Shown here: piece by piece, positions 5,402 through 30,953 of the stretch | How positions within the stretch are numbered: the first letter of the stretch is position 1 | Layout: every line of letters begins with the position of its first letter | From: Lachnospiraceae bacterium | GTDB lineage: Bacteria > Bacillota > Clostridia > Lachnospirales > Lachnospiraceae | DNA length: 48,480 nucleotides | Direction: 5' to 3' | Assembly: GCA_022797535.1 (NCBI GenBank) | Contig: JAAWKU010000008.1 | Location: forward strand, 1 to 48,480 | Notes under the pieces: model-generated | Seen by the model: the letters and a program-made list of their open reading frames with translations, nothing else | What the model was told of the DNA's origin: nothing | Database searches by the model: none | Made by a program: the position numbers and the translations under genes

Positions 5402-5442
5402 CTCGCGGGTAAGATGCGGAATTATGATTGAGAGGAATGACT

Positions 5443-7641: not shown

Positions 7642-8887
7642 AAACAAACAGGAGGTTCTGCTGCGGGTAGAACATTTAAGCCAGCATTTCGGCAAGGTCA
7701 AAGCTGTGGACGACGTAAGTTTTGAGATTATGAAGGGCGAAGTGTTCGGCCTGGTGGGAGAATCCGGCTGCGGAAAGACCACCACCGGTCGCTCCATCAT
7801 AAAAATCTACGACATTACGTCCGGCAGTATCTATTTCAAGGGCCAGCGCATCTGCGCAGGCACTGCCTCCTACAAAGAGGCGATCCGGCAGGCACGCCAG
7901 GACACTGCCGCCGCCATCCGGCAGTTGAAAAGCCAGTCTGCGAAAAAGCCGGAGCAAAAGAAAGAGAATGATGCCCGCATTGCCGAACTGAAGAAGGATC
8001 TGCAGGATACCATAGCGCAAAACCGCAGGAAAATAGCCGATGCCAAATACGATCACAAGTATTCAGATCGGGAATACGCCAAACGGCTGATCCAGGAAAC
8101 CCATGAACGCTATAAGCCTCTTCTGGAAGCCGCAAAAAATTCTCCGGCAGAACTGGGAAAACTGCGGAAAAAATATGCGGATGATCTCCGCATTGCCAAA
8201 AACACCAAGTTAATCACCAAGATCCAGATGATTTTCCAGGATCCCATTGCTTCCCTGGATCCCCGTATGACCATCCGGGAAATCATCTCCGAGGGACTGA
8301 TCGTAAATGGAATCAAAGACAGGAAATATCTGGATGAAAAGGTCTATGAACTTCTGGAACTGGTGGGACTGGTACGGGAACACGCAGGGCGCTACCCTCA
8401 CGAATTCTCCGGGGGCCAGAGGCAGCGAATCGGCATCGCCCGCTCTGTGATCATGTCTCCGGATCTGCTCATCGCCGACGAGCCCATTTCCGCATTGGAC
8501 GTATCCATACAGGCCCAGGTAATCAATCTGCTCAATGAGCTGCGGTCCAGCCTGGATCTGACTATCCTGTTCATCGCCCACGACCTGTCCGTGGTAAAAT
8601 ATTTCTCTGACCGGATCGGGGTAATGTACTTTGGCAAAATGGTAGAACTGGCTTCCTCGGACGAACTTTTCGCCCATCCGCTGCACCCTTATACACGCTC
8701 GCTCCTGTCCGCCATTCCGCTGCCCGATCCACATTCGGAGAAAAAGCGCACGCGTATCACCTACAATGCGCTGGCTGAACATGATTACAGCGTAGATAAG
8801 CCCACGCTGCGGGAAATCCTTCCCGGGCATTTTGTACACTGCAACAATGCGGAGGAACTTCGATATAAAAAGGAGTTAGGTCTGTGA
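7631..8887 (+). CDS. oppF: Oligopeptide-type ABC transporter ATPase, OppF-like with a ~110-residue insertion
   Basis: This is the second ATPase subunit (418 residues; OppF is usually near 320). Walker A GESGCGKT is at 43-50. The Q-loop MIFQDPIASLDP carries its Gln near residue 203 instead of about 95. The signature FSGGQRQRIGIA, Walker B LIADEPISALDV and H-loop IAHDLSVV follow normally. The insertion lies between Walker A and the Q-loop (about residues 75-195) and is rich in Lys, Glu and Ala, suggesting a coiled coil. It sits at a different point from the insertion in OppD, so the two arose separately. The start is GTG, preceded by GGAAGGAGG inside the end of oppD. The downstream gene overlaps the stop by four bases. 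Confidence 0.88.
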   Translation: METENKQEVLLRVEHLSQHFGKVKAVDDVSFEIMKGEVFGLVGESGCGKTTTGRSIIKIYDITSGSIYFKGQRICAGTASYKEAIRQARQDTAAAIRQLKSQSAKKPEQKKENDARIAELKKDLQDTIAQNRRKIADAKYDHKYSDREYAKRLIQETHERYKPLLEAAKNSPAELGKLRKKYADDLRIAKNTKLITKIQMIFQDPIASLDPRMTIREIISEGLIVNGIKDRKYLDEKVYELLELVGLVREHAGRYPHEFSGGQRQRIGIARSVIMSPDLLIADEPISALDVSIQAQVINLLNELRSSLDLTILFIAHDLSVVKYFSDRIGVMYFGKMVELASSDELFAHPLHPYTRSLLSAIPLPDPHSEKKRTRITYNALAEHDYSVDKPTLREILPGHFVHCNNAEELRYKKELGL

Positions 8888-9443: not shown

Positions 9444-9829
9444 TGGAGTAGACGGGAGTCGAACCCGTGTCCAAAAGCCCATTCCCTGTCCTTCTACTAT
9501 CATAGTCTGCTGTTCCGCAATCAGCATTTTGCCGCTGCATTTCCTGTTACCGACTGGCGAACAGACTCCCCAGCCGGAACAGTAGCTTCATAATACGCCC
9601 ATGCGGGCAAAGCTTACCGCAAGTCGTTTCCCACAAAGTCGATGCCCGGACTCCAGAGTGTGGGTGCCCTGGACCGGACAAGCCGCCTGAGGCGGCGTCA
9701 CTCACAGCTTATTAGGCTGCAAATGCTAACTGATTATTGTCTTCAGCGTTTAGTTTAATTGTGCGATTAACGTGTCGCAACGGATAGCTTCTCCAGCTGC
9801 AAGACCCCTGTCGAAACCTTTACTACCCC
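9444..9829 (-). ncRNA. ssrA: tmRNA
   Basis: Transfer-messenger RNA rescues stalled ribosomes and tags the unfinished protein for degradation. Read leftward, the 5' end GGGGTAG pairs with the 3' CTACTCC to form the tRNA-like acceptor stem. The 3' part carries a T-arm-like GGTTCGACTCCCGT motif. The tag reading frame lies at 9747-9712 and encodes AEDNNQLAFAA followed by TAA. It ends in the usual small hydrophobic residues recognised by ClpXP. The terminal CCA is not encoded: TGA follows the discriminator A, so CCA must be added after processing. Ends are placed from the acceptor stem and may be off by a base. The gene lies just downstream of smpB, whose protein is its obligate partner. Confidence 0.95.
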
Positions 9830-12775: not shown

Positions 12776-12833
12776 ACACCATCTCCATGCCTGCCCCGGA
12801 CGCACCCGGAGCAATATCCAGGCGGAATAATGT

Positions 12834-12862
12834 AAAAAAACACCCTTGACCAGCAAGGGTGC
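12834..12862 (-). terminator. Intrinsic terminator after secG
   Basis: Read leftward: CACCCTTG, a CTGGT loop, CAAGGGTG, then seven T. It begins 14 bases after the secG stop and separates secG from rnr. Confidence 0.9.
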
Positions 12863-12875
12863 TCTTCTTTCGCCT

Positions 12876-13115
12876 TTAGAATGCGTTCAGGTTCAGTACC
12901 ACAGCAAAAAGGATAAATGCCACAGCCAGGATCTTGGTGAGTTTCACCAGCATTCCCTCCATGGAACGACCCTTATTTTTACCCCAATAGGTTTCTGCTG
13001 CTCCGCTGATCGCGCCAAGTCCTGCCGCCTTGCCTTCCTGCATTAATACTACAATCACCAGTGCTATACAATCAATAATGAACAAAACTGTCAGAATAAT
13101 TCTCAATACTCCCAT
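12876..13115 (-). CDS. secG: Preprotein translocase subunit SecG
   Basis: SecG is the small accessory subunit of the SecYEG channel that exports unfolded proteins. This 79-residue protein has the expected two membrane helices, about residues 3-23 and 56-77. Between them is a cytoplasmic loop with the family motif [17 protein letters not shown] and the pattern [10 protein letters not shown]. Length and layout are typical. It is preceded by a good promoter and a structured leader and followed by a strong terminator, so it appears to be a single-gene transcript. The start ATG follows AGAGGT. Confidence 0.95.
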
Positions 13116-13150
13116 TACAATACCTCTTTCCTCTTAGCCCTTCGATGAGA

Positions 13151-13180
13151 GTGCGGTCCTTACACCCTGTGGTGTCGCAC
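13151..13180 (-). other. Hairpin in the 5' leader of secG
   Basis: Arms GTGCG/CGCAC and ACACC/GGTGT form one interrupted stem with a CTGT loop and a six-base bulge on one side. It lies directly after the predicted transcription start and about 35 bases before the secG start. Its role is unknown; transcript stability is one simple possibility. Confidence 0.5.
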
Positions 13181-13187
13181 AAAAATG

Positions 13188-13216
13188 ATTATAGCATAAT
13201 TATTCCCTATACGCAA
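13188..13216 (-). promoter_or_regulatory. Promoter of secG
   Basis: Read leftward: -35 TTGCGT, a 17-bp spacer, and -10 TATAAT. The hairpin leader starts within about ten bases of the -10 box. Confidence 0.75.
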
Positions 13217-13234
13217 GTACCTTTCATTTTATTT

Positions 13235-14599
<1,365 letters not shown>

Positions 14600-14642
14600 C
14601 TATGAGTGTCTCCAAAAAGGGGGCTGTTTATGCACTTTTCCA

Positions 14643-15665
14643 TTATTCAAAGACCCAGAGATGCTTCATCTGCCTGCTGATCTGTTCATAACTCCAGCTT
14701 TGACGGCTCCGGGCCACGCAGTTGGGATCATTGACCAGAAAGCCGTCCTGGTCATAGCCGTATATCACAATAAAATGTCCGCCTGCCGTAAAGTCCCCGG
14801 GCTTCATGGAACAAATCAGCACGGCTCCCTGGTCCAGTGCGGCTTTCATTTCCCACTCCGACCCTTCTGGCTGGCTCACTCTCACCCCGTAGATAGGGGC
14901 CACATCCTCCATCAGGGCCCACAGCGTACCGGTTCCCGGCAGATAATACCCGTTATCCATGCTGTAGTCCCCGATGAAGTCCGGCGTCAAACGCTCATCC
15001 TCTGTGAGATAGTATAGTGCCATGGACAGGCAGGTGGGGCCGCAGCCGGAAACGGCGATGCAGCTGTTGTCCCCGTAGGGCGCATAGCCCCAGCGGGGAT
15101 CCCATTGCAGAAAGAGAGGAAATTCCTCTTTCTTTTCACCGTTGGTGAGCCCCCCTGCGCCCATATGCTCCGCTGTGGGCCAGCCTTCCACAAAATCCGC
15201 CATCTCCGGGTTATTGGCCAGAGCCTCCAACAGCCTGGCCGGGTACGCCCCGCTGTCACGCAGGATGGCGGCAATCCGTTCGTCCTGTTTTCCCAATTCC
15301 TCAAGTCTCTCCATCACCTGGCGGTCGGTTCGGTCCTGGGGCCTTTCCACATAGTCCAGCCCACATTTTTCCGGGTAAGACAACTCCAGGGTGCCTATCA
15401 CCTCCTCACCGGCGCCATCATGACCCAAATCCGCGGTGCGAAAAATGTCCTGCCCCACATCGCTGCCCTCCGAAGCTCCGGCGTTTTCTCCGCAGTACAG
15501 AGAAAGTATATTGTAAGCGTAGCTGATCTGCTCCTTCTGTTCCCTGAGCTGTGCCCGAACCTGTGTCAGCTGCACCAGACACAGCACGATACAGACCCAT
15601 GCCGCCATCATCCCTACTGTCAAAAAGTAAATTTGCTGTTTTCTCTTTATGTTCTTCTGCTGCAT
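14643..15665 (-). CDS. Membrane-anchored C39-like (papain-fold) cysteine peptidase
   Basis: The 340-residue protein begins with a basic segment and one membrane helix (about residues 12-31, FLTVGMMAAWVCIVLCLVQL). A short coiled-coil-like segment and an acidic linker follow. The C-terminal half matches Peptidase_C39_2 proteins: a catalytic cysteine in SGCGPTCLSMALYYL (about residue 208), histidine in GGHFIVIYGYD (about 292) and aspartate in VNDPN (about 307). The expected location is the outer face of the membrane. These domains cut peptides or cross-link bridges, but the substrate is unknown. There is no ABC-transporter domain, so it is not a bacteriocin exporter of the LanT type. The start follows GGGAGG. 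It lies upstream of eno with no clear functional link. Confidence 0.8.
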   Translation of the reverse strand: MQQKNIKRKQQIYFLTVGMMAAWVCIVLCLVQLTQVRAQLREQKEQISYAYNILSLYCGENAGASEGSDVGQDIFRTADLGHDGAGEEVIGTLELSYPEKCGLDYVERPQDRTDRQVMERLEELGKQDERIAAILRDSGAYPARLLEALANNPEMADFVEGWPTAEHMGAGGLTNGEKKEEFPLFLQWDPRWGYAPYGDNSCIAVSGCGPTCLSMALYYLTEDERLTPDFIGDYSMDNGYYLPGTGTLWALMEDVAPIYGVRVSQPEGSEWEMKAALDQGAVLICSMKPGDFTAGGHFIVIYGYDQDGFLVNDPNCVARSRQSWSYEQISRQMKHLWVFE

Positions 15666-15796
15666 CCTCTCATCCTCCCATTTTCAGACAGGATACCTTT
15701 GCATCCGGCTTCCTGTCCTGTCATGGGTTTTATTTTCCTGCCATGCTGTCACATACTTGTATCTACATTGTCTAATTTATGCCTAATCTGAAAATG

Positions 15797-16819
15797 TCAT
15801 AGCGGCTTTCCCTCCAGGATCTCCAGATAATCCTGATAATTCTTTTCCAGCAGCGCAGGCGTATCCAGTCCGTAGGGACACTTGCTCCTGCATTTTCCGC
15901 AGTGCAGACACTCTTTAATCCTGTGCATCTTCTCCTGCATCTGGGGCGTAAGCTGGGCCTGAGAAGGAGCCCTGCGGATCATCAGGCTCATCCGGGCCAT
16001 ATTGTTGATCTCAATTCCCACAGGGCAGGGCATACAATATCCGCAGCCCCTGCAAAAATCCCCCAGCAGTTCCTGCCTGTCATGGGCGATCACCGCCTCC
16101 AGCTCCGGATCCATCCCGGGGGGATTGTCAATATAGGAAAGGAATTCGTCCAGTTCCGACTCCCGCTGAACCCCCCATATGGGCAGCACATTCCCGTACT
16201 GCGCCAGGAAGGCATAGGCCGCCGCGGAATTGGTAATCAGCCCGCCGGACAGCGCCTTCATGGCGATAAAGCCCATATCGGCCTCTTCCGTTTTCCTCAC
16301 CAATTCAATGTCTTTCTCCGTGGCCAGATAGCAGAAGGGGAATTGCAGCGTCTCATACAGGCCGCTCTCCACAGCCTCTGTTGCCACGTTCAGCCGGTGG
16401 TTGGTGATGCCAATATGGCGCACCTTCCCCTGGGCCCTGGCCTCCAGCATGGCCTCGTACAGCCCTGTGCCATCCCCCGGTCTGGGGCAAAAGGAAGGAT
16501 TGTGGAACTGGTAGATGTCAATATAATCTGTCCGCAGATTTCCCAGAGAGGTCTCCAGATCTTTCCAGAACTCCTCCGGGGTGGAGGCCCCGGTCTTGGT
16601 GGCTATGTACACCTTTTCCCGCATGCCCTGAAAAGCCTCCCCCACCTTCTCCTCACTGTCCGTATACCATCTGGCCGTGTCAAAAAAAGTCACTCCCTGG
16701 CAGTAAGCCCTGCGCAGCAGCTTCACAGCCTCCTCCCTGCCGATGCGCTGGATGGGTAAGGCTCCGAACGCATTTTTCTCCACTGTGATCCCTGTTTTCC
16801 CCAATGTAACCTTCGCCAT
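15797..16819 (-). CDS. Aldo/keto reductase with C-terminal 2x[4Fe-4S] ferredoxin domain
   Basis: The 340-residue protein joins a TIM-barrel aldo/keto reductase to an iron-sulfur module. The catalytic tetrad is visible as Asp47, Tyr52, Lys75 and His106, in FFDTARWY, ATKTG and YQFHNP. The tail carries cysteine groups CRGCGYCMPCPVG and CLHCGKCRSKCPYG. The first has two residues between its last cysteines instead of the usual three, which may change or weaken that cluster. Proteins of this type are common in Clostridia and are presumed redox enzymes with unidentified substrates. A good AAGGAGGA site precedes the ATG. Upstream lie a single copy of the 33-bp repeat found near tsf and a 30-bp tandem repeat array. 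Confidence 0.88.
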   Translation of the reverse strand: MAKVTLGKTGITVEKNAFGALPIQRIGREEAVKLLRRAYCQGVTFFDTARWYTDSEEKVGEAFQGMREKVYIATKTGASTPEEFWKDLETSLGNLRTDYIDIYQFHNPSFCPRPGDGTGLYEAMLEARAQGKVRHIGITNHRLNVATEAVESGLYETLQFPFCYLATEKDIELVRKTEEADMGFIAMKALSGGLITNSAAAYAFLAQYGNVLPIWGVQRESELDEFLSYIDNPPGMDPELEAVIAHDRQELLGDFCRGCGYCMPCPVGIEINNMARMSLMIRRAPSQAQLTPQMQEKMHRIKECLHCGKCRSKCPYGLDTPALLEKNYQDYLEILEGKPL

Positions 16820-18875: not shown

Positions 18876-20042
18876 ATGATTACCCTTCTAACCAGACTTT
18901 TTATAAAAGACAGAGAAAATACCACCGCTCCCGGAGTACGGCAGGCATACGGCATGCTGTGCGGCGCGGTGGGAATCGGACTGAATCTGCTGCTCTTCGC
19001 AGGCAAATTTTTTGCGGGCATGTTCAGCGGGTCCATCGCCATCACGGCAGATGCTTTCAACAATCTGTCAGACGCCGGCTCCTCCATCATCACCCTGATC
19101 GGTTTTAAAATGGCGGGACACAAACCGGACCCGGGCCATCCTTTCGGGCATGGCCGCATCGAATATATCTCCGGCTTTCTGGTGTCTCTGCTGATCCTGC
19201 TGATGGCACTGGAACTGATCAAGGGTTCCGTGAGCAAGATCCTTCATCCCGAGGAACTGATTTTCTCCCCCAGTATTGTGGTGATTCTGGTCCTGTCAAT
19301 CCTGGTGAAATGTTATATGGCCCTGTACAATGCCCGGATCGGCAGGCAGATTGATTCCGCCGCCATGAAAGCCACCGCCACCGACAGCCTCAGCGACATG
19401 CTGGCCACTGCCGTGGTGCTGGCCGCCACTCTGGCGACCCATTTTACAGGATTGTCCATAGACGGCTACTGCGGCGTGCTGGTGGGGCTGTTCATTCTCT
19501 ACGCAGGTTTCCAGGCGGCCAGGGACACTCTGAATCCCCTGCTGGGCCAGCCGCCCGAACCGGCATTTGTGAAGCAGATCGAGAAAATCGTACTTTCCTA
19601 CCCGACCATTCTGGGAATTCACGACCTGATCGTCCACAATTACGGACCGGGACGGGTACTGATCTCCCTCCATGCGGAAGTGTCCGCGGACGGTAATCTG
19701 CTGGAACTTCACGATACCATTGATCTGGCAGAACACCGGCTTCGCAGCGAACTGGGGTGCAGCGCCGTGATCCATATGGATCCCGTATGTATCCACGATG
19801 AACAGACCCAGAAGCTGAAAGCCATGGCTCAGCAGACTATCTCCCGCATTGACGGGCGGCTGACGCTCCATGATTTTCGCGTTGTGGCCGGCCCCACCCA
19901 CACCAATCTGATCTTTGATGTGGTGACCCCCTATGATTTCGACTACAGCGACGCCGGGCTCTGTGAACTGATCGACCGGCGCCTGAAGGAGCAGGACCCC
20001 GGCTACTGCGCCGTCATAGACGTGGATAAACAGATGGTTTAG
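18876..20042 (+). CDS. Cation diffusion facilitator (CDF) family metal exporter
   Basis: This proton-coupled exporter of divalent metal ions has 388 residues: six membrane helices, then a cytoplasmic ferredoxin-like domain and an extra C-terminal segment. The metal-binding helices read ITADAFNNLSDAGSS (helix 2) and ATATDSLSDMLAT (helix 5), and HPFGHGRIEYISG follows helix 2. The site pattern is Asn-x3-Asp with Asp-x3-Asp, which I associate with manganese-exporting members; zinc members have Asp or His there. Manganese efflux is therefore likely but inferred. The ATG is preceded by AAAGGA in a short structured leader with its own promoter. The gene ends four bases into the convergent thiamine pyrophosphokinase gene. 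Confidence 0.9.
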   Translation: MITLLTRLFIKDRENTTAPGVRQAYGMLCGAVGIGLNLLLFAGKFFAGMFSGSIAITADAFNNLSDAGSSIITLIGFKMAGHKPDPGHPFGHGRIEYISGFLVSLLILLMALELIKGSVSKILHPEELIFSPSIVVILVLSILVKCYMALYNARIGRQIDSAAMKATATDSLSDMLATAVVLAATLATHFTGLSIDGYCGVLVGLFILYAGFQAARDTLNPLLGQPPEPAFVKQIEKIVLSYPTILGIHDLIVHNYGPGRVLISLHAEVSADGNLLELHDTIDLAEHRLRSELGCSAVIHMDPVCIHDEQTQKLKAMAQQTISRIDGRLTLHDFRVVAGPTHTNLIFDVVTPYDFDYSDAGLCELIDRRLKEQDPGYCAVIDVDKQMV

Positions 20043-20692
20043 CAGCAGGCCGTCACGATCCCCAGCAGCTGGCCGCAGTCCACGCTGACCAGGGCCTCCT
20101 GTCCGATAAACTCATTGCTGATACCGATGGGAAAGTCATTGGTGATTCTGGCGTTGTCAAGTTCATACTTCATCCCCCGGATATTCACTCCCAGGGCTTC
20201 CTTCCCCAGAGAAAGCAGGGACAGGTAACCCTCCATGGAGGCGGGAAAGCCCACTTCTTCATTTTCCATCACAAATATTTTCCCCCTCCCGTCTGTCATA
20301 TATCCCACAGCGCCGTGGCTCTTCAGGAAAAGCAGACACTGGATATTGGCCAAGGTGTGTTCCAACCGCCCTCCCGTGGCCCCATAGAGCACAAAGGAAG
20401 TGTAACCCCGCCCCAGGGCCAGCCGTATGGCAGCCAGGGTATCCGTATCGTCCTTTTCGGGCTTAAGGCGTACCACACGCCAGGGCTCTTCCCGCTCCCA
20501 CCGGGCGATCCGGGTAAGCTGCTCTTCCCCTGCCGAGTCGAAATCCCCCAGCACCAGATCCGGCTCCAGCCCCAGCCGGGAGCAGTAGTCCAGTCCCCCG
20601 TCTACGGCTATGACCAGATCCTCCCCGGCTACCGGGATCTGCGCCGCCTTTTGTTCACCCGCCGCCACAATAATACATTTTCCTGCCTGCAT
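20039..20692 (-). CDS. thiN: Thiamine pyrophosphokinase
   Basis: The enzyme transfers pyrophosphate from ATP to thiamine to make the cofactor thiamine diphosphate. The 217-residue length is normal. Diagnostic blocks are IAVDGGLDYCSRLGLEPDL, VLGDFDSAG, the LKPEKDDTDTLAAIRLAL substrate site and YGATGGRLEHTLANI. A C-terminal beta-sandwich contains SLLSLGKEALGV and ITNDFPIGISNEF. The start follows AAGGAGGAAGAC. In many Firmicutes this gene follows rpe and rsgA; here it stands alone with its own promoter and overlaps the end of the convergent metal exporter by four bases. Confidence 0.95.
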   Translation of the reverse strand: MQAGKCIIVAAGEQKAAQIPVAGEDLVIAVDGGLDYCSRLGLEPDLVLGDFDSAGEEQLTRIARWEREEPWRVVRLKPEKDDTDTLAAIRLALGRGYTSFVLYGATGGRLEHTLANIQCLLFLKSHGAVGYMTDGRGKIFVMENEEVGFPASMEGYLSLLSLGKEALGVNIRGMKYELDNARITNDFPIGISNEFIGQEALVSVDCGQLLGIVTACC

Positions 20693-21257: not shown

Positions 21258-23564
21258 CTATCGATTTTCGTTCACAAACACCTGTGCTCTGGACTGAATC
21301 ACACCCGCCACGTCCTGTGCGCTCTTCTGCCCGCTGAAGAATGCCTCTGCCTCCTCCACAATGATATTGCGGATATCTTCGTTGTAGTACGCCGTGCGGT
21401 TCACGGTGTAGATAAATTCACAGATGGCATCCACTTCTTCCTGGGTGAAAGGCTCCAGAATAACTTCTTCGCCGTTGATATTCCAGGTATCGTCATAATA
21501 CTGCTTGTTGCCGTCCTCGTCCGTCCAGTAACTCCTTTCCGTGGCCTGCTTTGCCTTTTCCACGAAGGCAGACTTCAGCACCGGCATATCGTACAGCTGG
21601 TCGCTGCTCTGGTACTCTTCTGTCAGGAATTGACGTACAAACTGCCAGGCCCCGTCCTGGTGTTTGGATCTGGCGGAGATCATAAATGTATAATTGCCCG
21701 AGTTAAGTACAGAACCATTGGAGTCCGCCGTGGGGAAGCCCACAAAGGAGATCTCCTCGCCCATATAACCCTTGATCTGGTACTTGCAATCCTTGATATT
21801 GCTGATATACAGGTCATACAACAGGCTGCGGTTCTCCCGGTACTGGCTTTCATTGTAAGCGTAATCGTAATCCTCCCAATAGTCCTGGGGATACTCTGTG
21901 GGAAGAGTCTTGGCATACTCCAGCATATCAATGAAACTCTGGGAGTTAAAATTACATTTACCTGTCCCTACATCAATAAAGTCCTGGCCCGCGTAACTCA
22001 GCATATAGTAGATATAGCTGTCCCGCATCATATCTCCAAAAGCCTTGGCCCCTTCGGGCATAGTGGCCAGTACAGCCTCCACATCCTCCATGGTCCAGGA
22101 CTGAGGCTCTCCCACCAGAGACTTTTTGGCGATCATAGTCCTTACATTAAAGCTGGGCACCACTGCGTACAACTTTCCGTTTACGGAATAAGCCTCCCAG
22201 ACATTTTGCAGATATTCCAACTGACCCAGTTCCTCGTCCGCCTCCAGCAGCTTACCAATATCCGCCAACAAACCCTTGGAAATATAGTTACCGTAGCTGC
22301 TCATATTATTTAAAAGCATGATATCCGGCATCTGTCCGCTGGTAATGTCGCTGTTGAGCCGGGTCTGCCCCGCCGTCCAGTCCTCATTGGTATTGTATAC
22401 ACTGTAATCCTTTACAGTGATTCGGTACTGGTCGCTGGCTTTGTTAAAAGCAATGACCTTAGCCTTGACATCCGAACTCACATACTCTCCGCCCAGCACC
22501 ACCACTTCCTTGTCCGGAATGTCCGCCGGATCCACATAGGTAAAGTAAGCGCATTTCTGCTCCCAATTTTCCATATCGTTATAGATGGCCACAAAATGCT
22601 GGTCATCAACGATCTGTAAATACTGTACATTGTTGGCTGGGAGATCAGAATTCACAAAATTCATGACTGTTTTGGGCTCTGCATCTCCCACATTCCAGGT
22701 GTATATACCGGAATTATTGGTGAGAAGCAGATCTGAATTGACTCCCGGACGCACATTGTAACTGAATATAAAGGGGACTTCCGTCTGCTCCCCCATGAGG
22801 TTGGAATCCATATCATAATTGGTCAGATAGCATTTGGTCCAGTCCTCGTCATAGGTCAGCATCATCAGCGTGCCGTCCGCCTTGGTAAAGAGCGTGTTGA
22901 CACGCTCTAAAAGGTTCTGATCCAGTTCCTTGCGGCTGATATCCTTACCTTCAGGCCCATATGTTACCGCCTCGTACTTGCTGCCTCCCATGATGGCCAG
23001 AGCCCTTCCCTCGCCGCCGTCCAGCAGATAGTTACAATAGGTATATTCGTCCGTATTCCCACTGTCGATCCGCTCCGACCAGGCCAGATTGCCCTCAATG
23101 TCCCAACAGTTCAGATAGTATCTGTCCTCATAGACATAGTTCTCCGGATCCGAAGTATCCTCGTAGGAAGCGTTTTCCACAGCATAGATATACCCGCCCT
23201 TTGTAAAGAGGGTATTGTTGATCCAGCTGCGGCCCTCCCCCTCCCGCTTGGGAGTTGTGAGCTGAACAAAATTTTTGTCCGTACCGTCCGCATTTGACAC
23301 ATGGTAACCAAATACGATTTCGGAATTCCCCTCCTCATCCCAGGAATACTTAGTAGTCATCAGATACAGTTTACCGTCCAGAAATACCATGTCATTGACA
23401 TTTTCATCATTGTCAATCTGGGTAATTTCCTGGAAGGAATATACATATTCCTTGGCCAGCTGGCTGTTTTCATCTCTGCCGCCACCGCCGCAGGCGGCAA
23501 GCCCCAGGGCCATGACCGCTGCAAGCCCCAGAGCCAACCCTTTTTTCAATAAATCCTTTTTCAT
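21258..23564 (-). CDS. Large extracellular solute-binding lipoprotein, second of two paralogues (propeller-like N-domain plus SBP family 1 domain)
   Basis: This 768-residue lipoprotein has a signal with lipobox LAAC (cysteine about residue 25). Residues about 35-340 contain repeated beta-strand motifs such as DGKLYLMTTKY, GGYIYAVEN and DGTLMMLTYDED, consistent with a beta-propeller; this is inferred from pattern. From about residue 345 it resembles sugar-type SBP family 1 proteins: KAKVIAFNKASDQYRITVKD, TSGQMPDIMLLNN and KLYAVVPSF. The last 40 residues (EEAEAFFSGQKSAQDVAGVI) closely match the end of the paralogue at 28501-30819. It is the last gene of the cluster, after the HlyD- and MacB-like genes. 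A proven ligand is not deducible. The start follows AAGAGGATGTA. Confidence 0.82.
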   Translation of the reverse strand: MKKDLLKKGLALGLAAVMALGLAACGGGGRDENSQLAKEYVYSFQEITQIDNDENVNDMVFLDGKLYLMTTKYSWDEEGNSEIVFGYHVSNADGTDKNFVQLTTPKREGEGRSWINNTLFTKGGYIYAVENASYEDTSDPENYVYEDRYYLNCWDIEGNLAWSERIDSGNTDEYTYCNYLLDGGEGRALAIMGGSKYEAVTYGPEGKDISRKELDQNLLERVNTLFTKADGTLMMLTYDEDWTKCYLTNYDMDSNLMGEQTEVPFIFSYNVRPGVNSDLLLTNNSGIYTWNVGDAEPKTVMNFVNSDLPANNVQYLQIVDDQHFVAIYNDMENWEQKCAYFTYVDPADIPDKEVVVLGGEYVSSDVKAKVIAFNKASDQYRITVKDYSVYNTNEDWTAGQTRLNSDITSGQMPDIMLLNNMSSYGNYISKGLLADIGKLLEADEELGQLEYLQNVWEAYSVNGKLYAVVPSFNVRTMIAKKSLVGEPQSWTMEDVEAVLATMPEGAKAFGDMMRDSYIYYMLSYAGQDFIDVGTGKCNFNSQSFIDMLEYAKTLPTEYPQDYWEDYDYAYNESQYRENRSLLYDLYISNIKDCKYQIKGYMGEEISFVGFPTADSNGSVLNSGNYTFMISARSKHQDGAWQFVRQFLTEEYQSSDQLYDMPVLKSAFVEKAKQATERSYWTDEDGNKQYYDDTWNINGEEVILEPFTQEEVDAICEFIYTVNRTAYYNEDIRNIIVEEAEAFFSGQKSAQDVAGVIQSRAQVFVNENR

Positions 23565-23606
23565 TACATCCTCTTTTCTTGAATCCCACTTCCAATTTTT
23601 CGATGC

Positions 23607-24842
23607 TTACTTCCGTTTACCGGATTTCTTCGACTCCGTCTGAAATTCTTTCTCCAGCCTGCGGCGTCTGCGCGCCTCCTGCTTCTGTTGCCTGCGCGCC
23701 TCCCGGTCTCTCCTTTTCTGCTCTTTGTCCGAAAAAGAAGGATCGTCATCCAGCCAGGATTTCTCCTCCCCGGACCTGCGCCGCGCCCTTCGCTTTTCGC
23801 CGGCCCGCTGCAGCTTATCCTGTGCGGCCTCCAGCACGGTTTTGGCAGTCCATCTCTTGTTCTTCCAGCGGATCACGATCCACACCAGCAGAACTCCGGA
23901 AGGGTACACCAGGAATACCATCTGAAACAGGGTGAGCAACGCCAGAATATCCTCATAACCCCTGGCCACATTCTCCCAATAGGGATAGATAATGGCCTTG
24001 CCATTCATGGAGCGGGTTCCAAAATCCAGCAACAACTGCAGTCGCTTCCCAAGCTGGTAGCGGGTGCCATTCTCCAGCACCTCCACTTCCTTCTCCGGGT
24101 TCCCCAGCTGTTCCCTCACATAGTTCAGGGCATACTGTTTTACCGGATTCGGCATGACAATTTCAAAGTGATTGATGCCGTTGCTCTTCCCGTAGGTGGT
24201 CAGCGTTTCATAGGACACATAGACCCTGGTTGCGTCCAGCCCTCCCGCCTCGTAGAGTCTCCCGGCAGGGCGTTCCACCACGCCGGTTACAATATGAGGC
24301 TTCCCGCCTATATTCACATACATGCCCGCCACATCCGTGGAGCCGAAAAGCTGCCATGCAGCGTCTCTGTCCAGAATCACATAGTCCTGCATGAGATCAT
24401 TGCCGGAGAAGTAGGCACCATTTATCAGCTGCAGCTGGTGAAACAGGAAAAAATCGCCTCCGATGCCCAGTGCATCCGCCTCCACAGATCCTTTATCCGT
24501 GGAAAGAGTAATGGTGCCATCTGCGCTGTAGGCATCGGCCCAGAGTCTCGCGCCGGGATTGGGCGAGTCCAACTCAATGGATGCCTCCTTGAGCGCGCTG
24601 TCCAACGAATGCTCAAAACTCCTTATACTGTCCTGTGTAACCTCCGCATTAGGAGAAAAGAAGCAACTTACCTGCGCCACTCCTCCTTCGCTGTCCCAGC
24701 GCTGATCCACATGCTGCTCCGTCTGCCTACCCGCAAGCAGGGCGATCACGCTGGTCAGCGCCAAAAACAGTACTGCGGAGATCCCGGCCGACATTCCCAG
24801 CCTGATTTGCCTGCCGGATAAAGATCTCAACCATTTTTTCAT
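23607..24842 (-). CDS. MacB-type periplasmic-core membrane protein with only two membrane segments
   Basis: The 411-residue protein has an N-terminal membrane helix (about residues 15-38). An extracytoplasmic domain resembling the MacB periplasmic core follows, with blocks such as DALGIGGDFFLFH, INGAYFSGND, YVILDRDAAWQLFGS, HIVTGVVERPAG and RVYVSYETL. One strong C-terminal hydrophobic segment (about 305-333) is followed by a roughly 80-residue, extremely basic and charged tail. Normal MacB/FtsX permeases have four helices and a partner ATPase; neither is visible here. It directly follows the HlyD-type gene, the usual MacA/MacB pairing. ATG 24842 follows AGAGGT; ATG 24860 follows AGGA overlapping the upstream stop and is possible. 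Function is unknown. Confidence 0.7.
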   Translation of the reverse strand: MKKWLRSLSGRQIRLGMSAGISAVLFLALTSVIALLAGRQTEQHVDQRWDSEGGVAQVSCFFSPNAEVTQDSIRSFEHSLDSALKEASIELDSPNPGARLWADAYSADGTITLSTDKGSVEADALGIGGDFFLFHQLQLINGAYFSGNDLMQDYVILDRDAAWQLFGSTDVAGMYVNIGGKPHIVTGVVERPAGRLYEAGGLDATRVYVSYETLTTYGKSNGINHFEIVMPNPVKQYALNYVREQLGNPEKEVEVLENGTRYQLGKRLQLLLDFGTRSMNGKAIIYPYWENVARGYEDILALLTLFQMVFLVYPSGVLLVWIVIRWKNKRWTAKTVLEAAQDKLQRAGEKRRARRRSGEEKSWLDDDPSFSDKEQKRRDREARRQQKQEARRRRRLEKEFQTESKKSGKRK

Positions 24843-24868
24843 ATCTACCTCTATATGCATATCGCGTC

Positions 24869-26554
24869 CTAATTGTCTGCCAGCCTTACCTGCTTTCCGG
24901 CCTCCACGGGCTTGGTGGAAGTGGTAATGACATAGGAATAGGACTCCACAGCGCCACTGATTGCCGACTTGGTGTCATCCGATGCCAGCACTTCCACATC
25001 CACGCGGGACGCAAAATACCGGGTTCCAATGGGGGAACTCTTGGAAGTGATTACCAAGATAAACTTGCCGTTATTATCCTCACGGATGGCACTGTTAGGC
25101 ACTGTCATATCATAATTGGCGCTTTTCTGGCCCACGGACACGTTCAGGCTCTGACCTGCGATCACACTCTCTCCTGTCACGTCAAAAGTCAGCAGCTTGT
25201 TCTGTCCCGGGTTGTTGGGGTCGGGCTTAATGCTGGCAAGAGTCAGCTGGATATCATCATACCTCCAGGCATTGACCAATTCCGCCTGATCACCCACTGA
25301 CACGCGCTGAGCCTGCTGATTGGTTACGGAGAAGCTCAGGGTATATCCCTTGCCTTCGGGCTGCATGGTGAATACGATTCCGTCAGAGGGGGTTTCCACA
25401 CCGGATTTTACATTGACAGCGGTAATCAGGCCGGAAATCGGCGCCGTCACCTCACTGCCCATGGCGCCCGTGGTCAGTTTATCTACCTTAGCCTGGGCAG
25501 CCTCCACCTCTTTCTGCGCAAGGGTAATGGCCTCACTGGCTTCACTGAGCGCATAGGTATCTCCGATATTTTTGATCAGTTCATCATATGCTTTCTTCTT
25601 CAGTTCGTAGTAATCCCTGGCATTTCCAATAGATAACTCCGCAAATGCCTTCTGCTGATTCAACGCATTATTAAGATCTGTTGTGCCCTTCTTGGCGTCC
25701 AGCGCCGCCTGAGCATTTTTCAGAGTCTGGTCTGCCGAACGCTGCCTGCTCTCCAGGCTGATCACATTCTGATTGGCTGTCAGACGCTGGGATTCCAGAT
25801 TTTTCAGGTTGTCGCTGCTAGAGACGCTGCCGCTGCCGATAACCGCTTTCTCCTGCGCGATCTGGGCATCCAGAGAGGTGAGCCAGTTCCGAGCCCCGGT
25901 CAGATCATTGTTGATGGCGTCCAGCGCCGCCTGGGCTTCATTCACTGCCTTGGTCTCCTTGCTCACGTCAACGCTGTAGGGGTTGAAGGCAAGCTGCCGG
26001 TCAATATTGGAAATCACCAGCGTCCACTCATCTACCTTATCCTGCGCCGCCTCCATCTCCGCCTTGGCGGTATAAATCTGTTTCAGATAGCCGCTCACAG
26101 AACCTGTATTGCCTGCGTTCTGCATTATGGCCACATCATAGCTGCCGGTCAGCAGCTGTTTTTCAAAGTTGAACTGTGCCTTTTCCAGCGCCTGTTGCTT
26201 CTGTTCAAGTTCTGTCTTGGCCTGGTCAAGTTCCTGGCTGTCCTCCTCAGTCAGGTAGCAGAGCACCTGACCCTTTTCCACCTTATCGCCTACCTTAACC
26301 TCCACGCTGGCAACCTGCCTGACTTCCTTGATCTTCACGTTGTACGGGTCGCCGCTCTCCACGACTCCCATCCCCCTGATCTTGGCCGTGATGGAACCGC
26401 TCTCTACATACTGGGTCGCCACCTCAGGCAGGGAATAATTCTGGATCGTATTAGAGAAAAATGTTAAGAGCAGCAGGATAATCAGAAAAACAATCGCCGC
26501 GTTTTTAACCCATTCTTTTCTCTTGGTTCCGTTCTCGTTCATTGTGTTAACCAT
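24869..26554 (-). CDS. HlyD/MacA-type membrane fusion (adaptor) protein
   Basis: The 561-residue protein has one N-terminal membrane helix (IVFLIILLLLTFFSNTI) and faces outward. A split lipoyl-like domain (VKIKEVRQVASVEVKVGDKVEKGQVLCYL ... EVTAPISGLITAVNVKSG, quoted in parts) flanks a long alpha-helical hairpin of about 250 residues rich in Ala, Gln, Glu and Lys. Beta-barrel and membrane-proximal domains follow. This is the layout of MacA-like adaptors that join an inner-membrane pump to outer parts. Such proteins also occur in Gram-positives beside ABC exporters. Here the neighbours are importer permeases and a MacB-like protein. Starts at 26623 (GTG), 26554 and 26542 are possible; 26554 has an A/G-rich site. 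Confidence 0.82.
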   Translation of the reverse strand: MVNTMNENGTKRKEWVKNAAIVFLIILLLLTFFSNTIQNYSLPEVATQYVESGSITAKIRGMGVVESGDPYNVKIKEVRQVASVEVKVGDKVEKGQVLCYLTEEDSQELDQAKTELEQKQQALEKAQFNFEKQLLTGSYDVAIMQNAGNTGSVSGYLKQIYTAKAEMEAAQDKVDEWTLVISNIDRQLAFNPYSVDVSKETKAVNEAQAALDAINNDLTGARNWLTSLDAQIAQEKAVIGSGSVSSSDNLKNLESQRLTANQNVISLESRQRSADQTLKNAQAALDAKKGTTDLNNALNQQKAFAELSIGNARDYYELKKKAYDELIKNIGDTYALSEASEAITLAQKEVEAAQAKVDKLTTGAMGSEVTAPISGLITAVNVKSGVETPSDGIVFTMQPEGKGYTLSFSVTNQQAQRVSVGDQAELVNAWRYDDIQLTLASIKPDPNNPGQNKLLTFDVTGESVIAGQSLNVSVGQKSANYDMTVPNSAIREDNNGKFILVITSKSSPIGTRYFASRVDVEVLASDDTKSAISGAVESYSYVITTSTKPVEAGKQVRLADN

Positions 26555-26626
26555 ACCCTTTCCATATGAAATAAGTCTTTTCCGCCACACACCCTCACCA
26601 GGCGTGCCGGAAAATCTTCCCACATC

Positions 26627-27583
26627 TTATCCCTTCACGCCGCCCTGGTAGGTGATACCATCCACCAGATACTCTTCCCCGTACAGGAACACCAGCAGGC
26701 CGGGAACCATATAAATCGTCGCCACGGCGAAGGCCAGGCCGATCTCGCCGGCATTGATCTTGCTCAGAAACACCGACAGGGGATGCATCTCCGCATCCGC
26801 CAGCAGGATCAACGGCTGTTCCACCATGTTCCAGTAGTCGATAAACACCAGGATCGCCGCCGATGCAATGGCTCCTTTACAGAGCGGGAAGCACACCTTA
26901 CAGAACACCTGCCACTCCCCGGCGCCGTCTATCTGTGCCGCCTCCACCAGAGAGGCGGGAATTCGCCGCATAAACTTTGTCAGCATAAACACCGCAAAGG
27001 GAGAAAAGATGCCCGGCAGCCAGATAGCCCACCTGGTATCCAGAATATTCAGCCAGTCAGACACCAGATAGTTGGGCACCAGCGTCACCTGATAGGGCAT
27101 CAACATCAATATGATGTACAGGAAGAAAATAATCTCCCTGATCCTTCCCCGGTATCTGGCAAACCCATAGGAAGCCAGGGTTGCCACTGTGAGCTGGAAC
27201 ACCACGATGGGCCCCACCAGGATCACCGAATTCCAGAACTTCAGCAGATACTCCGGGCTTTTCAGCAGCACGGTCACATACTGACTGAAGGATACCATAT
27301 CCGGTATGAATTTCAGCGTCACCTTTTCCGCAATGTACACCTTTCCCCCGGAGGAGGTGGTGGCAAAGACCATGCCATAATTAGAACTGATCTCCGATGA
27401 GGACATGAAGGAGTTGGTGATGGTCAGCACAATGGGCATCAGAAACAGGATTGCGAAAAAGGCGGCGAACACAGTGCCGAAACCCCTTTTCGTGTAGGAC
27501 CAGGTCCGACGTCTCCTGGCGGCCTTTTTGACCCTGTCCCGCTCCAGTTCCCAGGGCTGCAGGGTTTTCGTTGGCTTACTCAT
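26627..27583 (-). CDS. Carbohydrate-type ABC transporter permease (MalG-like)
   Basis: This 318-residue membrane subunit has six predicted helices. A basic cytoplasmic N-terminus (KKAARRRRTW) precedes helix 1 (AAFFAILFLMPIVLTITNSF). The EAA loop is standard for this class: SLVEAAQIDGAGEWQVFCK. The C-terminus FLYGEEYLVDGITYQGGVKG is typical of MalG-like proteins. Its first bases overlap the stop of the partner permease (ATGA), so translation is likely coupled. Without a cluster ATPase, it probably depends on a shared MsmK/UgpC-type ATPase encoded elsewhere, as is common in Firmicutes; this is inference. Confidence 0.9.
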   Translation of the reverse strand: MSKPTKTLQPWELERDRVKKAARRRRTWSYTKRGFGTVFAAFFAILFLMPIVLTITNSFMSSSEISSNYGMVFATTSSGGKVYIAEKVTLKFIPDMVSFSQYVTVLLKSPEYLLKFWNSVILVGPIVVFQLTVATLASYGFARYRGRIREIIFFLYIILMLMPYQVTLVPNYLVSDWLNILDTRWAIWLPGIFSPFAVFMLTKFMRRIPASLVEAAQIDGAGEWQVFCKVCFPLCKGAIASAAILVFIDYWNMVEQPLILLADAEMHPLSVFLSKINAGEIGLAFAVATIYMVPGLLVFLYGEEYLVDGITYQGGVKG

Positions 27584-28485
27584 CCCTCCACATCCTTTCC
27601 GAAGCGGTTCTCCACGATGAACAGCAGTCCGATGATCAGCACCATGACGATGGACATCAGCACGGCCGCAGAGGAGAGCTTCTGATAGTCAAGGTTCCGG
27701 AACGTATTATTCATGAATGTCTGCAGCATGTAAATGCTCTCGTAGGGGTAATCCCCGCTCAGCAAATAAATTTCGCGGAACACCTTGAAGGAATTAATCA
27801 ATGACATAATCGTCACAAACAATATGGTAGACGACAGATACCGAATCTTAATATGGAAGAACGTTTGCAGCGCAGTAGCGCTCTCCATGCGGGCCACCTC
27901 CAGGATATCCTTGGGGATACTGGAGAGAGCCGCCATGAACAGAATCATATTATATCCCAGATTTTTCCAGAGAAAAAGGATTGTCAGCACGATGCGGCCA
28001 TGGTCGGACTTCAGCCAGTCAATGGGGCTGGCCCCAAACACAGACATCATATCGTTTACTACGCCGTTGTAGTGGAACAGAACCTGCCAGACCAGCACCA
28101 CCGAAGCCACCGGTACCATCATGGGGCTTAGGAAAAAAGTCCTGAACTGGCTTTTGAAAGGAATCTTGGATTCCAGCAGGATTGCCAACAGCAAGGACAA
28201 TACCACGGCCATGGGCACCGAAATGCCGGCAAACTTGGCGGTATTGGACACCGCCGATCGGAACGCCGCATTGTTTATAATATTTTTAAAATTATCTAAA
28301 AATACAAAATTTCGGCTGATGGGATTGTCTACCATGGCATAATAAATGATCACGATAAAGGGAATTACAAAAAAAGTCATAACCCCCAGGAAGCTGGGGG
28401 CTATGAACAGCCCCGAGCTTCTCTTCTCCCTCTTTAACCGTCTGCCCATACTGGCATGGGCCTTTTTCTGTTTCGATTTCTTCAA
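27580..28485 (-). CDS. Carbohydrate-type ABC transporter permease (MalF-like) with an unusual EAA loop
   Basis: The 301-residue membrane subunit has six predicted helices, beginning FIAPSFLGVMTFFVIPFI. It is the partner of the MalG-like permease, with which it overlaps by four bases. The cytoplasmic coupling loop reads ILEVARMESATALQTFFHI. The conserved glycine of the usual EAAxxDGA pattern is replaced, giving MESA, and the following leucine-proline is altered. This could change how it engages an ATPase. The gene follows the first lipoprotein by 15 bases and belongs to the same transcript. The start ATG lies behind a GGAGG-containing stretch. Confidence 0.88.
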   Translation of the reverse strand: MKKSKQKKAHASMGRRLKREKRSSGLFIAPSFLGVMTFFVIPFIVIIYYAMVDNPISRNFVFLDNFKNIINNAAFRSAVSNTAKFAGISVPMAVVLSLLLAILLESKIPFKSQFRTFFLSPMMVPVASVVLVWQVLFHYNGVVNDMMSVFGASPIDWLKSDHGRIVLTILFLWKNLGYNMILFMAALSSIPKDILEVARMESATALQTFFHIKIRYLSSTILFVTIMSLINSFKVFREIYLLSGDYPYESIYMLQTFMNNTFRNLDYQKLSSAAVLMSIVMVLIIGLLFIVENRFGKDVEG

Positions 28486-28500
28486 GGCTCTTATGCCTCC

Positions 28501-30819
28501 TTAGCTGTTCTCACTTACATAGGTCTGCACCCGGCTCTGAATCACATCCGCAACCTCCCGGGCACTCCTCTGTCCTTCGAAGAAGGGCTGAGCCTCCTCC
28601 TGGATGATGTTGAGTATGGTCTGGTCATTGTTGGTGGCTGCCACCGAACTGTTGATCAGATCCCTTAAATCCTGTATCTGTTCCGGCGTGGCGGCATAGA
28701 TTTCACACTCCCAGTCATCATACCCCCAGGTAACCTTGGGCCAGATCATGGGATTGCCGTCTTCGTCCAGCATAATCTCCCCGTTTTCATCGTAAGAGCC
28801 GTTTTCCTCCATGGCCTTCGCAAAGGTTTCTTCCAGCATATCCTTTCTGATGGGCAAATAGCTGATGCCGCCGCGTTCCGATACCTCCTCATACTGCAGC
28901 ATGGACTCGATAAAGGCCCACGCGCCCTCAGGGTTAGCGCTCTTGGTGGTGATGGCATAGCAGTTCTGACCGTTGATACGATTGCCGCCGCTGCCATCCA
29001 CTGTAGGATAACCGATAAAGGTAATGGGATCATTGAACATCTGGCAATACATCTGCATCTGTGTTACTTCCCAGATACTTATGTCATTGAGCAGTACCTT
29101 GCCGTCGGAAATCTGTTTCGGAAGGCTCTCCCCCTCTCTGTCCCATTCTGTCTCCGCCTCAAAGGTATTGGCAAACTCCAGAATATCCAAAAAGTCCTGA
29201 CTGTCAAAGCTGCATTTTCCAGTGCTGTAGTCTATGAAAGAATCACTGCTGTACTGCAGGCAGGTGCTCAGCATACTGGCCTTGGAAGAATAGCTGAAAA
29301 GTTTTGCCTCCGGATACTGGGCCGCAAATTCCATAACATCCTTGATGGTCCAGCTGGTGCGGTCGCCCAGTTGGGAAGTCCGCCCTATGATGGTGGAAAT
29401 CGAGAACCCTGTGGGGATGCACACCAACTGATCCTTAAAAGTGTATGCATTCAGCACTGTTTCCATCAATTCATCCCGCTTCACGGAACTGGATTCCAGA
29501 TAGGGGGACAGATCCGTCAGAAGCCCCTTGGCCACATATGTGTTCACATTGCCAAAAGTCAGATCTATGATATCCGGGCAGTTGCTGCTGGTAATAGCGT
29601 TATTCAGCGCTGTCATGGCATCCTGGTACTTGGTTTCTGACCACTCCGTGCTATCGTCAAAATATGTAACAATTCGAACCTTATATATATCACTCTGCTT
29701 GTTAAAGTTGACCACAGCCTCCTGTATTTCCTGGTTGCTATACATGGTAGCCAGTGTAATAATCTTCTTCTCTGTCACTTCGGAGGCTTCCTTCTTGGTC
29801 AGTAAAGCAATCTCCCTGCTGTTGCTGCTCCAGTTCTCCGAGTACACCGCAATCCGGCCGTCCTCCAGAGGCTGGATCATCCGAATATAGCCACCGTTAA
29901 TATCACAGTCCGTCCAGACCAGAATCTCCTCGGCGGTTCCCGTCTCCAGGTCGTACTTCCAGAGTTTGGAGCCATCGTTGACCAGAAAACCGCCTTCCGG
30001 CGCAGGAGTCAACGCACCACTGTTGTAAGAAGAAGGCATGCCGCTGTGAACGGTTCCCATGGCTTTGTTGACCAGATCCACCTCCACACACTCCATACCG
30101 GATCCATTGCCATAGCGAGTAATCAGCACCTTGCCATCTTCTGTAACGCCAAGGGAATTAACCCAGTCAGAACCAGTGTCAATCTTCGCCAGAAGTTTTG
30201 CGTCCATGTTGAACACTATGATAAATGCGTTCCCTCTTGTCATACCGCTGCCGCTCACCTGGGCGTATAGTCTTCCCTCGTTGTCGATAACCATGTTCTG
30301 CACATAGCCGTCTTCAGAATCCTCCAGCTTCAACGCCTCAGTGATATCCTCCTTCAGCAGCTGTTTCCCCTCCGGGTTAAATTTCAGCAGAAAATAATTC
30401 TGGCTGTAATTTCCTTCCTCATCCGTTACAGATGCGTTCAGCAGACAGATCATATTGTTTTCCTGGTCAAAAACCAGACCATTCATGGGATATGTATAGT
30501 CTGCGCCCTCTATGGTCAGGTCCAGGGGCAATTCCACCGTCTCTCCTGTCTCCAGGTTCCTGCGGTAAAATTTCTGACCGCTCTCCTGGGTCTCCTCATT
30601 ATAAAAGTAGGAAGAATAATACAGATCCCCTCCCCTGAGCACGGGGTCGCTTATGTTCTGCTCCCCCTCGTCGGCCGTCAGATCTATAAACTCAGGCACA
30701 TAGAGAAAGCCCTGTGGTATCTCCTCCTGCTGCTCCTTACCGCAGGCTGCCAGTGATAACAGCAGCGCCGCCGCCGAGACCAGGGCAAGTATTCTCTTTA
30801 TATATCCTTTTTTCTTCAT
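28501..30819 (-). CDS. Large extracellular solute-binding lipoprotein, first of two paralogues
   Basis: The 772-residue lipoprotein has a basic N-terminus, a hydrophobic run and the lipobox LAAC (cysteine about residue 26). Residues about 45-355 show repeated strand motifs (GGDLYYSSYFYN, DGKVLITRYGNG, EGGFLVNDGSKLW, DGRIAVYSENW), suggesting a beta-propeller. From about residue 365 the sequence resembles SBP family 1: NFNKQSDIYKVRIVTYFDD, SSNCPDIIDLTFGN and QLVCIPTGFSI. It shares layout and C-terminal end (EEAQPFFEGQRSAREVADVI) with the 768-residue protein that closes the cluster. The frame is open 62 codons upstream, but only the ATG at 30819 has GGGAGGAG and a signal peptide behind it. It heads the operon. 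Confidence 0.85.
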   Translation of the reverse strand: MKKKGYIKRILALVSAAALLLSLAACGKEQQEEIPQGFLYVPEFIDLTADEGEQNISDPVLRGGDLYYSSYFYNEETQESGQKFYRRNLETGETVELPLDLTIEGADYTYPMNGLVFDQENNMICLLNASVTDEEGNYSQNYFLLKFNPEGKQLLKEDITEALKLEDSEDGYVQNMVIDNEGRLYAQVSGSGMTRGNAFIIVFNMDAKLLAKIDTGSDWVNSLGVTEDGKVLITRYGNGSGMECVEVDLVNKAMGTVHSGMPSSYNSGALTPAPEGGFLVNDGSKLWKYDLETGTAEEILVWTDCDINGGYIRMIQPLEDGRIAVYSENWSSNSREIALLTKKEASEVTEKKIITLATMYSNQEIQEAVVNFNKQSDIYKVRIVTYFDDSTEWSETKYQDAMTALNNAITSSNCPDIIDLTFGNVNTYVAKGLLTDLSPYLESSSVKRDELMETVLNAYTFKDQLVCIPTGFSISTIIGRTSQLGDRTSWTIKDVMEFAAQYPEAKLFSYSSKASMLSTCLQYSSDSFIDYSTGKCSFDSQDFLDILEFANTFEAETEWDREGESLPKQISDGKVLLNDISIWEVTQMQMYCQMFNDPITFIGYPTVDGSGGNRINGQNCYAITTKSANPEGAWAFIESMLQYEEVSERGGISYLPIRKDMLEETFAKAMEENGSYDENGEIMLDEDGNPMIWPKVTWGYDDWECEIYAATPEQIQDLRDLINSSVAATNNDQTILNIIQEEAQPFFEGQRSAREVADVIQSRVQTYVSENS

Positions 30820-30896
30820 ATTCTCCTCCCTTTCCATATGGATCAGGTATACCAGCGCGTCCATTAATCCATACCGTATGCTATTTTCACCAAATA

Positions 30897-30953
30897 AGTA
30901 TAGCACAGCAGTCTGCAAAATGCATCTTAAGACTTCATGAATAATTCTTAAGA
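30897..30953 (-). promoter_or_regulatory. Promoter with two TCTTAAGA boxes for the transporter/HlyD cluster
   Basis: Read leftward: an extended -10, TGC-TATACT (30905-30897), lies about 80 bases before the first lipoprotein gene. The -35 region is poor. Two identical palindromic boxes TCTTAAGA at 30925-30932 and 30946-30953 are 21 bp apart, or two helical turns, with the nearer one abutting the -35 position. A weak -35 plus phased boxes suggests an activator. The boxes could also pair with each other as an RNA hairpin from upstream readthrough. Confidence 0.5.

Follow-up and report, generated by a model that had tools for sequence, protein, structure and literature searches.

The window analysed here, a 48,480-nucleotide (nt) stretch from a Lachnospiraceae bacterium (contig JAAWKU010000008.1), contains six genes, SBP1-PermA-PermB-HlyD-MacBL-SBP2, all on the minus strand between positions 21258 and 30819 (Table 1), which encode two lipoprotein solute-binding proteins (SBPs), two importer permeases, a membrane fusion (adaptor) protein and a MacB-like protein (MacBL). 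Distant Gram-positive relatives retain these genes as a set, and their retention suggests a type of uptake machine that has yet to be described. This machine is probably a type I (CUT1-like) ATP-binding cassette (ABC) importer that includes, as regular subunits, an adaptor of MacA type and a MacB protein stripped down to a pedestal; in Lachnospiraceae, its MalK-type ATPase would be encoded elsewhere.

An earlier note on this DNA had described six co-directional genes under one apparent promoter. The common direction and the tight spacing are confirmed, the gaps between open reading frame (ORF) ends from SBP1 to SBP2 being 15 nt, a 4-nt overlap, 3, 8 and 42 nt. The single promoter has only indirect support, from these small gaps and from a conserved upstream box, the promoter scans being uninformative. 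The family assignments by Pfam and NCBIfam match those of the note: Pfam recognises SBP_bac_8/SBP_bac_1 in SBP1, SBP_bac_1 in SBP2, BPD_transp_1 in PermA and PermB, HlyD_3 in HlyD and MacB_PCD in MacBL. The start of SBP1 (ATG at 30819) is our choice, the longest ORF beginning at 31005, and HlyD starts with GTG, an internal ATG being possible.

Table 1. Position of the six genes and of the upstream box in the window
Feature	Description	Position	Strand	Length (aa)
SBP1	Lipoprotein; predicted beta-propeller-like N-domain, then family 1/8 solute-binding domain	28501-30819	-	772
PermA	CUT1-type importer permease, UgpA/GlcT-like; EAA loop partly kept	27580-28485	-	301
PermB	CUT1-type importer permease, UgpE/GlcU-like; canonical EAA loop	26627-27583	-	318
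HlyD	HlyD/MacA-type membrane fusion (adaptor) protein	24869-26623	-	584 (from the GTG start)
MacBL	MacB-like protein; MacB core, without FtsX domain or ATPase	23607-24860	-	417
SBP2	Second lipoprotein solute-binding protein	21258-23564	-	768
TCTTAAGA-N13-TCTTAAGA box	Putative response-regulator site, 5' of SBP1	30925-30953	.

Conservation of the gene order

Genome contigs were searched with a profile built from an 18-sequence MacBL alignment, and the best 80 of 93 relatives, mainly Lachnospiraceae and Acetatifactor, were taken; a separate search scored only 7996 candidates. Among these 80, PermB and HlyD are adjacent in 78 and HlyD and MacBL in all, and 74 have the whole four-gene block PermA-PermB-HlyD-MacBL; of the incomplete loci, five (L004, L006, L008, L038 and L057) start inside the set, and the sixth (L010) is correctly ordered with HlyD in two ORFs. 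Wider draws of genomes give the same picture. MacBL was matched in 25 of 250 genomes of the family (E <= 1e-10), and the block is complete in 22 of the 24 places besides our own genome, L111 and L118 starting inside HlyD. In the class and phylum draws, 45/293 and 46/398 genomes match MacBL, mostly weakly, and 15 and 8 places were taken, respectively, with the strong class matches G402, G436 and G467 lying outside the 15. PermB-HlyD-MacBL occurs in 14 of the class places, 13 of them with PermA as well (L146 starts at PermB), and the block in all eight phylum places. Only one of the weak MacB matches of these draws (E ~1e-10 to 1e-22) was looked at, L148 (G453), taken as a weak-end control, and it is an ordinary HlyD-ATPase-MacB exporter.

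Altogether, the block is complete in 117 of the 127 loci found with MacBL, the other ten being eight contigs that start inside the set, one split HlyD and the ordinary exporter. The order is conserved far beyond chance, and the occurrence of the block in the family, class and phylum draws rules out a cluster peculiar to this genome. Such a restriction had been set beforehand as a refutation of the single-system view, which is supported since the same order recurs in many other genomes.

Permeases, lipoproteins and the supply of ATPase

PermA and PermB are nearest to UgpA/GlcT and UgpE/GlcU in NCBIfam, below the curated cut-offs, and both have the BPD_transp_1 domain and the EAA loop of CUT1 importer permeases. 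In PermB, the glutamate of this loop is present in 120 of 121 sequences and the A-A and D-G positions in all 121; in PermA, the glutamate is present in 114/114. These ATPase-docking loops are kept even at loci without a linked ATPase, and an ATPase-free channel is rejected because of their retention. The SBPs likewise belong to family 1/8, as in type I/CUT1 ABC importers.

SBP1 and SBP2 share approximately 27% identity. The proposal that a propeller domain precedes the solute-binding domain is moderately supported: the N-terminal domain of SBP1 is predicted to be all-beta (24 strands at residues 38-344; model mean pLDDT 86.4), and among 50 aligned SBPs there are 11 weak member-by-family matches (E <= 0.01) to propeller-type Pfam models (SBBP 4, Phytase-like 2, Reg_prop 2, PQQ_2 1, BNR_4 1 and SGL 1). 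Furthermore, many of the named matches in a viral structure library are propellers (sialidase, NHL, Kelch and galactose oxidase). The best 50 rows of a PDB fold search with SBP1 are all SBP chains, so that this search is no test of the propeller.

No gene for an ABC ATPase was detected within the set or next to it, in agreement with the earlier note. Those found elsewhere in the window are two ORFs on the plus strand (5428-7641 and 7631-8887), which lie more than 12 kb from the set and reach MalK-profile scores of 98 and 131 versus 600-658 for the operon-linked MalKs of relatives. This absence is, however, not system-wide: at nine loci (L147 and L149-L156) spanning five families (f21, f95, f139, f187 and f77), the first gene recognised downstream of MacBL encodes a MalK-type ATPase (ORF of 364-438 aa), in the order SBP-PermA-PermB-HlyD-MacBL-MalK or PermA-PermB-HlyD-MacBL-MalK-SBP. 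Both linked MalKs that were scanned (n=2) have OB_MalK and TOBE_2 domains. A linked MalK was found in none of the 80 best relatives and none of the 24 family loci. The missing ATPase is a feature of this lineage and not of the system.

Shared ATPases of the MsmX kind are known (PMC7658222 and PMC5730181). In our own genome, 28 matches to PermB (some of them partner permeases) but only two full-length MalK-type matches were found, the latter on C64, in what by eye is a sugar-importer operon, and on C50, in a potABCD-like operon. The MalK-type ATPase with OB/TOBE domains absent from the window operon thus has a candidate in trans on G000:C64, below the curated UgpC cut-off. A UgpC-family ATPase occurs in all 32 system-bearing genomes tested (E <= 1e-80), above the cut-off in 28, and three of these have a linked MalK. 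The note's suggestion of an importer drawing its ATPase from elsewhere is supported.

The MacB-like protein and the adaptor

The MacBL of the window consists of a first transmembrane (TM) helix, a MacB periplasmic core domain, one more TM helix and a basic C-terminal tail. Only MacB_PCD is recognised by Pfam, and the protein has neither an FtsX nor an ATPase domain. The fold is that of the MacB core: the profile matches MacB (5lj8, E 5.7e-12), and the model aligns to 5xu1_S and 5gko_A, with LolC/E, YtrEF and BceAB matching at lower Z. A MacB exporter would have four TM helices, an FtsX domain and a fused or adjacent MacB/LolD-type ATPase. The window MacBL has two helices and the window operon no such ATPase, and the ATPase linked in distant relatives is of MalK type. 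The MacBL of the window is thus not a MacB transporter. In MacB, ATP use shifts stalk helices and so does work outside the membrane, according to the relevant passage of PMC5985334. As MacBL keeps the helices flanking the core and, in this lineage, is devoid of helices 3-4, its movement could come from the importer, or the protein could be a pedestal only. One MacBL (L122, 12084-13760) has a C-terminal extension that is HAD-type hydrolase-like by eye.

The HlyD protein resembles the adaptor of MacAB-type exporters, as it is closest to the RND_mfp/HlyD families (NCBIfam) and matches MacA by its profile (5nik_D, E 2e-11). A long interval (~124-392) separates its lipoyl halves. In an unrooted FastTree tree of 94 adaptors, however, 62 importer-linked HlyDs are separated from the 32 others by one exact split (support 0.97) instead of grouping with exporter adaptors. 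The 62 comprise 54 adaptors (the window, 9 of the 80 best relatives, 22 of the 24 family places and 14 + 8 distant ones) and eight from a second subfamily described below, which form their own split (0.994) within the importer side. The 32 are 30 control loci (the best RND_mfp match of each of 30 genomes), L148 and the second HlyD of L112. None of the 30 control adaptors lies beside a CUT1 permease, 20 lie beside an ATPase or MacB, and 10 have neither in a short stretch. The exact split fits a single recruitment of the adaptor to the importer followed by long retention.

The note had also considered an importer accompanied by an unrelated MacAB-like part, which is not supported because HlyD and MacBL travel with the permeases and because of the separation in the tree. 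The same evidence bears on an ordinary importer with passengers, in which HlyD and MacBL would be co-regulated only and do unrelated envelope work. The physical link between importer and adaptor is indeed one that we infer. Nevertheless, this explanation appears very improbable, given that the four-gene block is ordered alike from Lachnospiraceae to genomes sharing only the phylum and that its HlyDs stand apart from other adaptors.

A more serious competitor, which we nonetheless consider unlikely, is that the operon serves two machines: a CUT1 importer, and an exporter resembling MacAB in which HlyD and MacBL work with an FtsX permease and a LolD-type ATPase encoded upstream or elsewhere. An exporter-type FtsX gene lies upstream of the set in at least 19 of the 80 loci, with a LolD-type ATPase visible in 5; these counts are a lower bound as many stretches end before the ATPase. 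The FtsX gene is also present in our own genome, in two pieces at contig ends, G000:C33 (L105 1-1442, -) and G000:C103 (L106 1-1317, +). The family commonly has HlyD-ATPase-MacB exporters, one of which (12213-15832) lies in L112 as a separate group of genes ~1.2 kb downstream of the set. In view of such genes, some components of the set might work in an exporter. On the other hand, the LolD-type ATPase upstream of the FtsX gene is confined to one clade, the FtsX profile matched none of the 46 distant set-bearing stretches (L110-L147 and L149-L156), and MalK is adjacent in nine of these. Moreover, MacB_PCD and FtsX domains are both present in the FtsX protein itself, which therefore has no obvious need for MacBL, the MacBL of this lineage is without the third and fourth MacB helices, and the ATPase frame in our own assembly is broken, ending after Walker A and running into the FtsX frame (a real deletion or an assembly fault). 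The exporter was set aside as the principal interpretation because the FtsX/ATPase pair was seen in just a single clade and other loci have a linked MalK. A PHP-type phosphoesterase gene lies directly upstream of the set in 34 of the 80 loci, in one clade (e.g. L048, 1759-2574).

Working model, regulation and a second subfamily

In the importer with adaptor subunits that we favour, the SBPs would take the ligand at the surface and pass it to PermA/PermB, powered by a MalK-type ATPase that, in Lachnospiraceae, is encoded elsewhere and is probably a shared MsmX/UgpC-like protein; in more distant members of the phylum, it would be the ATPase of the same gene row. MacBL, with its core between two membrane helices, probably forms a pedestal beside the permeases, on which HlyD would dock as MacA does on MacB. 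A HlyD ring or tube over the importer could then reach into the cell wall and organise or funnel SBPs and substrate. We infer this arrangement of pedestal and funnel, the transport direction and the identity of the own-genome ATPase. The envelope-spanning adaptor of the earlier note cannot mean one that spans two membranes, because the relatives (Lachnospiraceae/Acetatifactor) are Gram-positive Bacillota. A bolder version, plausible but somewhat doubtful, is a reversed efflux adaptor, in which a membrane-fusion-protein tube on the stripped MacB pedestal brings or positions substrate inward through the Gram-positive wall; if true, ABC importers across Bacillota would include a class with a new architecture.

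Several observations weigh against the importer with adaptor subunits. The assembly of PermA, PermB, HlyD and MacBL into one complex is itself presumed, and the glycine of the PermA EAA loop is substituted in most sequences. All UgpC-family matches of our own genome fall below the curated cut-off (best 340 versus 432 bits), and a UgpC-family ATPase also occurs in 12 of 14 unrelated control genomes, so that its presence is permissive only. The number of TM helices predicted in MacBL varies among relatives from two to four-six, the distant proteins having four to six and yet only MacB_PCD in Pfam (L147 and L152), and MacBL of the L147 type has only 9 relatives among the matches listed. The control adaptors are best RND_mfp matches by design, and importer-linked adaptors (e.g. 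G000:C190, G023:C9 and G033:C19) score lower in the list. To these are added the upstream FtsX genes and the L112 exporter, already discussed, a hairpin in PermA and the scarcity of MacBL in the second subfamily. The hairpin, strong and terminator-like with 13 pairs and a T-run (28377-28406), lies inside the start of PermA after the APSFLG codons; it is unevenly kept in ten relatives checked and is perhaps a by-product of these codons, and it might break the operon but was not used as such a break.

The set has the SBP family, the two EAA-loop permeases and, in relatives, the linked MalK-type ATPase of CUT1 importers (MalEFGK, Ugp and the MsmX-dependent systems of B. subtilis), but it adds HlyD and a MacB-core protein as regular subunits and, in Lachnospiraceae, usually two long SBPs bearing the propeller-like domain. 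HlyD resembles MacA and MacBL resembles MacB of MacA-MacB(-TolC) and of Gram-positive MacAB-like exporters (YknXYZ; S. pneumoniae 5xu1); unlike these exporters, the core of the set is devoid of LolD-type ATPase and FtsX domain, MacBL has two TM helices here and importer permeases are present. Bce-type and LolCDE-type (type VII ABC) systems share the MacB-like ectodomain architecture, and some relatives of the set share an adjacent two-component system. These modules, however, have ATPases of their own, which move the FtsX helices of the same module (PMC5985334), whereas the permeases of the set are of the type I importer kind. Within narrow sets of search terms, no description of an importer with HlyD/MacB adaptor parts was found in the open-licence literature.

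Membrane fusion proteins are usually regarded as export parts. A role of this module in uptake as well would be demonstrated by a conserved importer that possesses its own adaptor and MacB core, and the genes described here form a set on which this can be tested; the set is furthermore an example of how the MacB ectodomain can part from the ATPase that belongs to it and join a different transporter. The role of membrane fusion proteins in bacteria without an outer membrane is a question posed in a passage of PMC5985334.

The box upstream of SBP1 was found 0 times in 100 shuffles. It recurs, with most of its spacer, in the five closest testable relatives (L002, L003, L005, L007 and L009) and more loosely in L011; overall, it occurs in 7 of 60 upstream regions. 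Our own genome encodes a second system on C144 (L158, G000:C144:18000-29000, 3020-8771, -), SBP (770 aa)-PermA-PermB-HlyD (501 aa). It has no recognised MacBL, and an OmpR-type regulator gene lies divergently beside it, together with what looks by eye like a kinase gene. The C144 HlyD query has matches in 7 of 120 family genomes, and the order SBP-PermA-PermB-HlyD is found in all eight places of this subfamily (our own and seven in six other genomes). MacBL was called in two of the eight, weak scores of 19-29 bits being obtained in four short stretches.

These regulatory clues would also suit a sensor, in which HlyD and MacBL of an importer-like complex would signal the ligand or the state of the envelope to a two-component system in a Bce-like manner. 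Response-regulator genes adjoin all five sets of L152-L156 and five of the eight second-subfamily sets (L158, L175, L177, L178 and L180), the regulators being OmpR-type by Pfam in L152, L154 and L158 and by similarity to L152 in the others. In L152, L153 and L156, response regulator and histidine kinase genes precede PermA, and a Peptidase_S11 (D-Ala-D-Ala carboxypeptidase) gene lies between the kinase and the permeases. The paired box of the window operon points the same way. Nevertheless, we judge the sensor rather improbable. The EAA loops and the linked MalK favour transport, no regulator is present among the scanned flanking genes of the window operon, and among other stretches the regulator query matched only L055, L126, L134, L135 and the exporter control L148, so the regulator link is not general. 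Transport and sensing are, besides, compatible. As for the substrate of the proposed importer, these hints of control linked to the envelope suggest, as a reasonable guess, a glycan derived from the wall or a muropeptide, an oligosaccharide being another candidate.

Among the scanned neighbours of the set, housekeeping-like genes lie upstream (rpsB, tsf and a CPBP/Rce1-type protease gene), and those for a thiamine pyrophosphokinase, a CDF-type transporter (plus strand), phosphoglycerate mutase and enolase lie downstream; the window also contains a transfer-messenger RNA (tmRNA) at 9444-9829. The thiamine pyrophosphokinase gene (20039-20692) has homologues in 20 of 80 stretches; a thiamine link to the set was judged weak. 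Thiamine-biosynthesis-like genes (by eye) lie near the set in L150 (15232-18981).

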